Shown piece by piece: positions 38,023-41,546 of a DNA stretch of 64,000 nucleotides (position 1 is its first letter; the number at the start of each line of letters is the position of its first letter). The notes under the pieces are model-generated. The model did not search any database. It was not told the origin of the DNA and worked only from the letters and a program-made list of their open reading frames with translations. This stretch comes from Thermococcus profundus (GTDB lineage: Archaea > Methanobacteriota_B > Thermococci > Thermococcales > Thermococcaceae), in NCBI RefSeq assembly GCF_002214585.1, contig NZ_CP014862.1, positions 124,001 to 188,000 of the forward strand, written 5' to 3'. Position numbers and translations under genes: made by a program.

Positions 38023-38049
38023 GCCCCTTCAAAATTTTAGGTGGTCGAG

Positions 38050-38694
38050 ATGGCAGAGCTGCTCAACGTGAAGCCCACCAGGATGGAGCTCCTGAACCTC
38101 AAGAGGCGCATCACTCTGGCCAAGAAAGGACACAAGCTCCTCAAGGACAAGCAAGATGCGTTAGTCATGGAGTTCTTCACCATCTACGATGAGGCCCTCC
38201 AGCTCAGGGAGGAGCTCAACAAGAAGATGGAAGCTGCATTCGAGACCCTGACCAAGGCCCAGCTTGAGGTGGGAACCATCCCTCTCAGGGAGGCTGCCCT
38301 CTCCGTTAAGCCCAACAGAGAAGTAGAGATCCGCCAGAGGAACGTGATGGGCGTTCCCGTTCCCCTCATTGAGGCAGAGAGTTTCAAGAGGAGTGCGGGG
38401 GAGAGGGGCTACGCCTTCGTCTCCACTAGCCCCCTCGTGGATATCAGCGCCGAGAAGTTCGAGGAAGTTCTCGACCTTGTGGTTAGGTTGGCTGAAGTTG
38501 AGGAAACCCTCAAGAGGCTTGCCAAAGAGATAGAGGTTACGAAGAGGCGCGTCAATGCGCTGGAGTACATCATCATCCCGCGCATGGAGGCGACGGTCAA
38601 GTTCATAAAGCAGCGCCTCGACGAGATGGAGCGCGAGAACTTCTTCAGGCTGAAGAGAGTCAAGGCCCTCATCGAGGCCCGGAGCGGGGGCTGA
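38050..38694 (+). CDS. atpD: A-type ATP synthase subunit D (rotor shaft)
   Basis: A 214-residue coiled-coil shaft subunit. N-terminal helix [20 protein letters not shown] and C-terminal helix ([20 protein letters not shown]) form the antiparallel coiled coil turning inside A3B3. The Met at 38050 follows GGTGGTCGAG; an upstream in-frame GTG is part of the ribosome site. It is the last gene of the operon and is followed by T-rich sequence. Confidence 0.94.
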
Positions 38695-38720: not shown

Positions 38721-38797
38721 CTAAACGTTTGTGTAGGTAGTTATGTAGGCGAATCGCTTAAATATACCTCTTTCTTAAAATTACTTCGGTGGTATTC

Positions 38798-39565
38798 ATG
38801 GGGGAGTATTTCATAGAGCCGGGCCTTGATCCTCGGAAGGACCACGTCCTCTACCGCGATGAGGAGCATATGGTTGTTTACCTCGGCACTCAGGAGGGCG
38901 GTGAGGACGTTGATGTGAACTCCTACCTCATCGTTAGCAGGGGCAAGGGAATACTCATAGATCCTGGGGGGTACAAGATATTTTCAAAGGTTCTGGCAAA
39001 CGCATCAAAGTACGTTGATCCCAGGGACATAGAGTACGTCTACATATGCCACCAGGATCCGGACGTCGCGGGCAGTCTGCCTCTCTGGAGGGAAATCAGC
39101 AACGCCAAGATAATTACCCACTGGCTCTGGACGAGGTTTCTGCCTCACTTCGGCTTTGAGGATTCTGGGAGCGTAACCCACGAGCTCCCGGATGAGGGGG
39201 AGACCATGAACTTCGGTGCGACGACCCTTGAGTTCATTCCCGCTCACTTCCTTCACAGCCCGGGGCACTTCACCATCTACGACAGGAGGAGCAGGTTCCT
39301 CTTCAGTGGGGACATAGGAATAGCCCTTCTGGATGAGCCGTATCTCGTCGTTGAAAGCATGGAAAAGCACATCCAGGCTATGAAGCCGGTTCACGAGAGG
39401 CTTATGGCCAGCAGCAGGGCCATTAAGGCATGGCTCGACAGGGTGCGGGGTCTTGACATCGAGGCTATCCTGCCCCAGCACGGCGCAATAATTCCGAAGA
39501 AACATGTACCGAGGTTCTTTGACTTCCTTGAGAATCTGAAGTGCGGGGTTGACTTCCTCCGCTGA
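38798..39565 (+). CDS. diiron MBL-fold protein, ODP/FprA-like oxygen sensor
   Basis: A 255-residue metallo-beta-lactamase-fold protein of the flavodiiron type without a flavodoxin domain. Metal motifs seen: CHQDPDVAGS (an HxDxD variant of the usual HxExDH), FIPAHFLHSPGHFTIYD, the bridging Asp in LFSGDIGIA and the last His in ILPQHGAII. This matches the oxygen-binding diiron proteins (ODP) that in Thermotoga and Treponema bind O2 and signal through a chemoreceptor. Here the next gene, 9 bases downstream, is exactly such a receptor. The Met at 38798 follows GGTGGT. It could instead be a simple oxygen or NO reductase partner. Confidence 0.82.
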   Translation: MGEYFIEPGLDPRKDHVLYRDEEHMVVYLGTQEGGEDVDVNSYLIVSRGKGILIDPGGYKIFSKVLANASKYVDPRDIEYVYICHQDPDVAGSLPLWREISNAKIITHWLWTRFLPHFGFEDSGSVTHELPDEGETMNFGATTLEFIPAHFLHSPGHFTIYDRRSRFLFSGDIGIALLDEPYLVVESMEKHIQAMKPVHERLMASSRAIKAWLDRVRGLDIEAILPQHGAIIPKKHVPRFFDFLENLKCGVDFLR

Positions 39566-39574
39566 GGTGGTACC

Positions 39575-40327
39575 ATGGACATCAGGGGCCTTGAAAAAGC
39601 CTCCAGTGCTCTCTCCCAGTCCGTCAGGATCAAGACGTCAAGTAAGGAGTCGAGCCGGATAATAGATGAGCTGGCCGAGCAGATAAGCGGGCAGTTCCTT
39701 GAGAACAACGATGTCATAATAGAGAACATTGAAAAACTGTCCCAAGTCATGCACGAGCTTGAGAGATTTCAGAGGGAGTTTCTCCCATTCTTTCAGAGAT
39801 TTGAGGTTTTTGCCAGGGACTTCAACACACTGGTTGAGAACCTCGAGTACGTTTCGAGGATAAGCGACTCGATAGCGACTGTTGCCAAACAGACGAACTT
39901 GGTTGCTTTGAACGCTTCCATTGAGGCCGCCAGGGCTGGAGACGCCGGTAGGGGCTTTGCCGTTGTCGCAGAGGAGATACGGAAAATGGCGGTCCAAACG
40001 ATGAACCTCGCGAAGGAGATCAAGGAGTTCAACAACAAGGTCATGAGCCAGCTCAACACCCTTCGGGGGGCCCTCGACGTTATGGACAGGATAAAGGAGG
40101 GCACTGAGATACTTGGGAAGGACATAGGGGTCATAGTTGAGCTCAGCAACGTTCTGAGCGAGATCTCAAAGGAGCAGGAGGAGATCGTCAACGACATAAA
40201 GAGACTCAAGGGAATTGCGGTTGCACTCAGGAAGTTCTCTGAAATGCAGGATAAGTACAACAAGGAGCTGGCGTCCCTCCTGAGGGTGTTGGCGAGTGAG
40301 TATGCAAAGGAGAACAGGGGCGATTGA
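39575..40327 (+). CDS. soluble methyl-accepting chemotaxis-type signalling protein
   Basis: A 250-residue chemoreceptor signalling module without membrane helices or a periplasmic domain. The hairpin tip that contacts CheA/CheW is fully conserved: [20 protein letters not shown], then [14 protein letters not shown]. Before it lies a ~95-residue helical region ([20 protein letters not shown], then a Phe-rich stretch) with no known sensor fold; this may be where the diiron partner docks. It directly follows the ODP-like gene and has its own GAGGTGGT ribosome site. No che genes are in the window, so the output pathway must be elsewhere. Confidence 0.87.
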
Positions 40328-40328
40328 G

Positions 40329-41546
40329 ATGAGCGGGAAGCTCTTTTATGAGGATCCATATCTGCGGGAGACTACAACCCGCGTTTTGGAAGTTAAAGAC
40401 CTGGGAAGCGGAATGGTCTCTCTCAAACTGGAGGAGACCATCTTCTATCCAGAGGGAGGAGGCCAGCCATCTGACAGGGGTACGATCGAGGGGGATGGCT
40501 TCAGGATAACCGTCGAAAGGGTGGAAGAAACTGATGGTATATGGCACTCTGGGAGGCTTGAGGGGAGGCTCCCCAAGGAGGGGGATCGGGTCAGGTTGAC
40601 GCTTGACTGGGAGTGGAGATACGAGAACATGAAGAACCACACCGGTCAGCACATCCTCTCAGCGGTCCTCAAAAAGCTCTACGACTTAGAAACCACTGGA
40701 TTCCAGATATTCGATGGCTACAACAAGATAGAGGTCAACGGGAAGGTTGACTGGGAGATGATCACCAGGGCGGAGATCGAGGCCAACCGCGTGGTCTCCG
40801 AGGGTATTCCGATAACTGTCGAGGAGTACAAGTACCTGCCCGACGACGTGGTTTCTATACTAAGGAAGCACGTCAGCAAGGTGAAGGACAGGGTGAGGAT
40901 AGTCAAGATCGGCGACGTTGACGTGACCCCCTGCGGGGGAACCCACGTGCGGAACACGAGTGAGGTAGGGCCCATAAAGGTGGTGAACTTCTACAAAAAG
41001 AGTAGGGATCTTTGGAGGATAGAGTTCGTCTGCGGAAACAGGGCCATCAGGTACCTCAACGAGATCCTGGACGATTACTGGAGAAGCCTTGACGAGATGA
41101 GAAACAAGAACAGACCCCTGGTTGAGCGCGTGAAGGAGCTTAAGGCCGAGGTTGATGGTCTTGAAAACGAGAGGGATTCTCTAAGGAGGGAGCTCTGGCG
41201 GTGGAAGGCTGAAGCCCTACTCAAGGATGCGGAGGAAGTTAACGGAGTTAAAGTGGTCTCCCACGTTGAAGCCGCCCCCATGAAGGATGCCCAGGCCTTC
41301 GTGGTGTACCTCGTTGACAAGAACCCCGGAACCGTCGCGGCTGTTGCGGGAGAGAACTACATAATTCTGGCCAAGAACGAGGGCGTTGAAGGGATATCCA
41401 TGAACGAGATCCTGAGGGACGTCCTGGCCGAGACCGGTGGGGGCGGAGGCGGAAGCGAGGTACTTGCCAGGGGAGGGGGGTTTGAGCGTCCTCCTGAGGA
41501 AGTTCTGGAGGTGGCGCTGGAAAAACTAAAGAATGCGCTCTCCTGA
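40329..41546 (+). CDS. alaX: alanyl-tRNA editing protein AlaX, long form
   Basis: A 405-residue free-standing editing enzyme that hydrolyses Ser- or Gly-tRNA(Ala). Seen: the beta-barrel start with IFYPEGGGQPSDRG, the zinc-binding NHTGQHILSAV and CGGTHVRNTSEVG (His-x3-His plus Cys-x3-His), and a C-terminal DHHA1-like domain after a coiled coil, ending in a glycine-rich loop (TGGGGGGSEVLARGGG) as in the AlaRS C-terminal domain. It starts one base after the chemoreceptor stop, so it is translationally linked to the ODP-MCP pair though functionally unrelated. Confidence 0.92.
   Translation: MSGKLFYEDPYLRETTTRVLEVKDLGSGMVSLKLEETIFYPEGGGQPSDRGTIEGDGFRITVERVEETDGIWHSGRLEGRLPKEGDRVRLTLDWEWRYENMKNHTGQHILSAVLKKLYDLETTGFQIFDGYNKIEVNGKVDWEMITRAEIEANRVVSEGIPITVEEYKYLPDDVVSILRKHVSKVKDRVRIVKIGDVDVTPCGGTHVRNTSEVGPIKVVNFYKKSRDLWRIEFVCGNRAIRYLNEILDDYWRSLDEMRNKNRPLVERVKELKAEVDGLENERDSLRRELWRWKAEALLKDAEEVNGVKVVSHVEAAPMKDAQAFVVYLVDKNPGTVAAVAGENYIILAKNEGVEGISMNEILRDVLAETGGGGGGSEVLARGGGFERPPEEVLEVALEKLKNALS

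Follow-up and report, generated by a model that had tools for sequence, protein, structure and literature searches.

Among described systems, the closest to the locus presented here is that of Treponema denticola, in which the oxygen-binding diiron protein (ODP) is a chemotaxis oxygen sensor genetically coupled to the MCP TDE2496, a receptor that has neither a sensor nor a membrane part, is able to modulate CheA, and presumably becomes part of the membrane array (PMC7666581). ODPs have also been mentioned, in general terms, in archaeal signal transduction (PMC7319448). The metallo-beta-lactamase diiron fold is common to ODPs and flavodiiron proteins (FDPs; FprA/ROO; PDB 1e5d, 1ycf, 1vme), but FDPs carry HxExD where ODP has HxDxD and, unlike ODP, possess a flavodoxin domain and are not paired with MCPs. 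The T. denticola pair is reportedly the one presented by Muok et al. in 2019, with the ODP as TDE2498, the soluble MCP as TDE2496, and PDB entries 6qnm and 6r9n. Little is known about how hyperthermophilic anaerobic archaea steer relative to oxygenated vent water, and our search for literature on oxygen avoidance in Thermococcus yielded nothing. Regarding the control of motility genes in Thermococcales, the EarA motif A(C/G)(C/G)TACA(T/C) is found in up to three repeats before the BRE of arlB0; it was reported for the archaellin operon, and regulation in species that have chemotaxis systems was named as further work (PMC10665913).

The window analysed here is a stretch of 64,000 nucleotides from Thermococcus profundus (genome G000, C1:124001-188000). 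It carries an ODP-MCP pair of the kind known from bacteria, which we connect with archaeal motility through co-inheritance and a common promoter signal. What we add is a detailed account of the pair in Thermococcales, together with its separation from an unpaired group of ODPs (ODP-B), a Leu202 signature, the co-decay of the receptor with the che genes, and a shared promoter repeat. Both reading frames proposed in the initial annotation were recovered where it had placed them, on the + strand, and the features of the locus are as follows.

38041..38694, + strand: AtpD of the A-type ATPase, a neighbour outside the system (Pfam, gene order)
38732..38749, + strand: direct repeat TGTAGG-N6-TGTAGG with a 12-bp period, reverse complement of the EarA-type motif CCTACA
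38752..38766, + strand: BRE/TATA-like element (..AATCGCTTAAATATA..), about 40 nt ahead of the start codon, in the same place in 16/17 related loci
38798..39565, + strand: ODP gene (oxygen-binding diiron protein family, PF19583), 255 aa from ATG 38798, with an alternative GTG at 38789
39050..39067, + strand: HQDPDV motif with the first three metal ligands, H85, D87 and D89 (alignment)
39566-39571, + strand: GGTGGT, the MCP's own ribosome-binding site
39575..40327, + strand: small soluble MCP of 250 aa, the partner receptor (ORF and PF00015)
39881..39982, + strand: MCP hairpin tip, the CheA/CheW contact region (sequence alignment)
40296..41546, + strand: AlaX-type alanyl-tRNA editing protein, overlapping the MCP end, with an alternative ATG at 40330

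The first protein had been described as an FprA-type metallo-beta-lactamase protein without flavodoxin. Pfam profiles bear out the domain content: the protein matches PF19583 'ODP' with 238.4 bits (cut-off 27.2) and PF00753, the metallo-beta-lactamase fold, with 86 bits, and these profiles revealed no further domain in its 255 residues, neither an FMN-carrying flavodoxin domain after the lactamase domain nor a rubredoxin domain. A PDB sequence search retrieved the ODPs of T. denticola and T. maritima as the closest solved structures, the two matches standing at 1e-62 and 5e-60 (identity to the T. denticola protein about 41%), whereas the best FDP matched much more weakly, at 1e-14, a difference of more than 40 orders of magnitude. 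An AlphaFold2 model built from 32 aligned sequences (mean pLDDT 95, pTM 0.93) agrees with this ranking. Its best 10 PDB matches are all ODP chains (TM 0.84-0.91), whose entries describe a chemotaxis sensor in its zinc, apo or peroxy-diiron form; 6r9n, titled 'Peroxy diiron species of chemotaxis sensor ODP', is one of them. T. maritima ODP (6qrq, 6qwo) is the best structural match, and FDPs rank below the ODP chains, at E 1e-16. In the tree, the protein groups with ODPs, the FDP lying on a far branch. The refuting condition named at the outset, a grouping with NO/O2 reductases, was not borne out. By profile, sequence and predicted fold, the product of 38798-39565 is thus a member of the ODP family, and its identity as an FDP-type enzyme (FprA) is rejected, as profile, PDB and fold scores all favour ODP.

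Among 115 genomes of the class Thermococci, which also made up the entire phylum-level set, true ODPs, defined as short frames scoring more than 230 bits, split into two clades with 100/100 support each, ODP-A, the type of the window, in 30 genomes, and ODP-B in 31. ODP-A sits on a long branch (1.4 changes per column) as a clade separate from the bacterial ODPs, and a possible sister relationship to ODP-B has a support of 87-92% with a long-branch warning on the tree. The partner MCP lies directly downstream of ODP-A in all 30 loci, a conservation that excludes chance pairing. By contrast, no MCP was found beside ODP-B in the locus stretches examined from its 31 genomes. For comparison, we took the 80 bacterial ODP loci that best matched T. 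maritima ODP in a scan, a set thus selected for likeness to the Thermotoga protein; it spans Thermotogota, Synergistota, Aquificota, Nitrospirota, Spirochaetota and further groups. An MCP directly follows ODP in nearly all 80, in the same order and usually with little or no gap. The initial annotation's identification of the pair with that of Treponema and Thermotoga is supported by protein family, modelled structure, phylogeny and gene order, as well as by the che co-occurrence and the motility promoter element described below.

The partner had been read as a soluble MCP with an intact tip and no sensor domain of its own, and this holds: PF00015, the MCP signalling domain, is its sole Pfam domain (98 bits), and its tip is intact and conserved within the group of ODP-A partners. 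A search for the canonical methylation-site pattern found none in the partner MCP, but this pattern also misses one array receptor of G000. At 250 aa, the archaeal receptor is shorter than the bacterial partners (mostly 275-310 aa) and is not specifically related to them: it resembles bacterial ODP partners no more than it does other MCPs (46-74 bits), and in the MCP tree it stands on a long branch by itself. Descent of the archaeal and bacterial partner MCPs from one ancestral pair was considered; the tree does not join them, although its branches are too long for this to count against it. What the T. denticola and archaeal pairs do share is the family, the fold, the metal-ligand motif, an MCP without membrane or sensor part, and a full che system, whereas the archaeal pair differs in its archaellum and CheF host and in its EarA-type promoter repeat.

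We propose, with a probability of roughly 0.78, that the ODP-MCP pair is a soluble sensory unit of archaeal chemotaxis, in which an Fe/O2-responsive ODP acts through the MCP and CheA1 on the archaellum; very probably, the pair informs the swimming machinery about oxygen or iron. Given the homology with T. denticola, the most likely chain runs from Fe/O2 and ODP through an ODP-MCP contact to CheA1, CheY, CheF and the archaellum. ODP would hold a diiron centre in its flavodiiron-type metallo-beta-lactamase fold, and the binding of Fe(II)/O2 would change its conformation and alter its contact with the small MCP. The MCP tip would enter the CheW/CheA array and modulate CheA1, and phospho-CheY would then change archaellum rotation via CheF. 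In this chain, we infer O2/Fe sensing by the archaeal ODP from homology, and the ODP-MCP contact and its effect on CheA would likewise follow the bacterial analogy. The oxygen avoidance suggested in the initial annotation would be one form of the response; attraction, or Fe(II) sensing, would be others. In Thermococcales, which include laboratory strains open to genetic modification, the pair offers a single defined sensor unit of two genes.

The metal site both supports and qualifies the sensing step. The HxDxD motif, singled out in the initial annotation and present here as HQDPDV, is common to the two solved bacterial ODPs, to all 80 sampled bacterial ODPs, and to both Thermococcales groups, and it therefore marks the ODP family rather than being an oddity of this protein. 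By alignment, the remaining ligands are H153, D172 and H228. H85, D87, D89, D172 and H228 are kept in all 30 ODP-A, 30 ODP-B and 80 bacterial sequences, and H153 in all but one of them. Residue 202, however, is Leu in 30/30 ODP-A, whereas the position is Tyr in 78/80 bacterial ODPs, in 30/30 ODP-B and in G000's own FDP; this Tyr is a feature of the relatives compared here, not a published family definition. In flavodiiron proteins, the equivalent Tyr lies near the diiron site. Together with the long ODP-A branch, the invariant Leu suggests that ligand or reactivity could differ, and the chemistry of ODP-A may thus depart from that of the bacterial ODPs. ODP-A would then still be a taxis sensor, but one that no longer responds to O2 through a peroxo diiron state and instead senses something else, such as how much Fe(II) is available, NO, peroxide or a different metal. 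Besides the Tyr-to-Leu change and the long branch of the whole clade, such a shift would suit a host that is a strict anaerobe by lineage, and the title of a paper on bacterial ODP already describes it as a sensor of Fe(II) and oxygen. We nevertheless consider it unlikely: ODP-A has kept both the fold and the full set of six metal ligands, and a globin-fold MCP that adjoins the pair in two genomes, which we count in favour of a sensor pair, hints at O2 or a related gas.

A link to chemotaxis is apparent from co-occurrence in 74 good-quality genomes of the family, tallied as both, ODP only, partner only and neither. ODP-A gave 29/0/4/41 with MCP, 28/1/3/42 with CheF and 27/2/3/42 with CheA1, the last two being the fair test because the MCP tally counts the partner MCP itself; as the genomes are related, the p-values should be read with caution. 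The co-occurrence proposed as a check of the pair has thus been found: the pair is kept in 30/30 loci, and ODP-A is accompanied by CheF in 28/29 and by CheA1 in 27/29 good genomes. Three good genomes have CheF and MCPs but no ODP-A. In the same 74 genomes, ODP-B showed no association with MCP, CheF or CheA1 (odds ratios 0.75-0.96), and this contrast within one order indicates that it is ODP-A, not ODP in general, that depends on chemotaxis. One genome (G090) provides a natural experiment, in which che loss is accompanied by decay of the partner MCP. There, CheF is the sole che cluster protein found in the region searched, no CheA was found genome-wide, and the partner MCP is cut to 166 aa, its N-terminal arm gone, with the ODP frame intact. 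In another, near-complete genome (G045), CheA1 (L167:6312-8659) is split over two frames, by a frameshift or an assembly error.

The host system of the window's genome is complete in both its che and its archaellum clusters. The former comprises CheR (recognised by eye in the reading frame before CheY), CheY, CheB, CheA, two CheC, CheD, CheF and CheW, along with MCPs, and the latter archaellins, ArlC, ArlD/E, a KaiC-type ATPase (ArlH) and a secretion-type ATPase (ArlI). A second CheY/CheA/CheC-like set adjoins the archaellum cluster (L165:9891-13169; G000:C1:807890-811168), and the small MCP might in principle stand outside the main array and serve a separate kinase such as this second CheA (CheA2). 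The arms of the MCP, of 122 and 127 residues, are indeed shorter than the C-terminal arm of the array MCPs (153). Yet CheA2 was found in no more than 8 genomes, and ODP-A is missing from 6 of these, whereas CheA1 goes with ODP-A, and the counterpart in T. denticola is presumed to be part of the membrane array (PMC7666581). CheA2, being rare and mostly found without ODP-A, is an unlikely partner of the small MCP; we reject it as a dedicated one and regard a separate kinase as very improbable. CheA2-type CheA was also seen in several genomes without any MCP. That the first protein is instead an enzyme (an O2 or NO reductase, or a hydrolase), with a coincidental MCP neighbour, is scarcely credible and already largely refuted, for it shares only a superfamily with the flavodiiron reductases, has the domain content and PDB matches of an ODP, keeps its pairing and its che co-occurrence, and G000 encodes a separate FDP-like protein elsewhere.

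The promoter brings further support for the ODP-MCP pair as a sensory unit of the swimming machinery. In 16/17 ODP-A loci, TGTAGG-N6-TGTAGGC lies immediately before the conserved BRE/TATA, a few copies having 1-2 changed bases. In the exception (L047/G049), an MCP gene is inserted before ODP and the repeat sits upstream of the inserted gene. The exact repeat occurs eight times in G000: before ODP, at two MCP promoters, twice at the first archaellin, at the che/MCP divergent promoter, near CheF, and inside an ATPase gene. Over 13 related genomes, 54 of 69 matches have an ODP, MCP, Arl or Che anchor no more than 6.5 kb downstream of them, against 1.6 expected from the genome share covered by the anchor regions. 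With its 12-bp period, the ODP repeat fits the EarA motif of P. furiosus and other Thermococcales on the opposite strand, and on the strength of this match the pair probably belongs to an EarA-type motility regulon. It would be transcribed from its own promoter under this EarA-like repeat, so that sensor and swimming machinery would be made together. The published EarA target is the archaellin operon, whereas the repeat is found here at MCP, che and ODP promoters as well; it likely marks a wider motility regulon and suggests one regulator for archaellum, chemoreceptors and ODP sensor, a question left by the EarA study (PMC10665913). EarA itself is the candidate binder of the ODP promoter repeat, judging from the motif. 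Compared with the arl promoter, the ODP repeat is inverted and abuts the BRE, and its mode of action may therefore differ. More tentatively, at somewhat below even odds, an EarA-type regulon may span the archaellum, chemoreceptors, che genes and ODP unit, with ODP-A and its Tyr-to-Leu change as a distinct archaeal sensor subtype whose signal range or ligand differs from that of bacterial ODPs. Copies before archaellin, MCP and che genes include G000:C1:806150-806179. The copy near CheF (G000:C1:1149458-1149475, - strand) is followed by a TATA-like box and no obvious gene.

Of the genomic context, the initial annotation had mentioned the ATPase operon. AtpD does lie ahead of the pair in the window, as it does in 27/30 ODP-A loci overall (2 of these 27 with an extra MCP in between), but the functional weight given to this neighbourhood does not stand. 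AtpD and ODP lie about 100 bp apart, with a conserved promoter belonging to the pair in the gap, and in 3/30 relatives the pair has no adjoining AtpD; the ATPase neighbourhood is thus probably incidental, and an ATPase-linked function is rejected. AlaX follows the pair in 29/30 loci and is probably a co-transcribed passenger. The globin-like MCP inserted before ODP in two genomes is located at L047:3704-4942 (-) and L061:3704-4930 (-) (also L161 and L163). A model of its N-terminal domain (pLDDT 91.5) shows a globin-like fold, and the 50 best PDB matches (TM 0.41-0.66, E 0.2-1.6) include little besides globins and globin-like sensors.

ODP-B has a neighbour of its own. In about 30/31 genomes, many of them without MCPs, a protein of about 264 aa without Pfam family adjoins it upstream (ODP-B loci L036:2106-3672, L039, L040, L048, L033, L063). 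One ODP-B (G044, L048:2809-3687) shifts frame before the last metal ligand and has lost its normal C-terminus. A remote relative of the 264-aa protein weakly matches CoxG, suggesting a START/SRPBCC fold, and ODP-B and this neighbour possibly form an ODP-based system outside chemotaxis.
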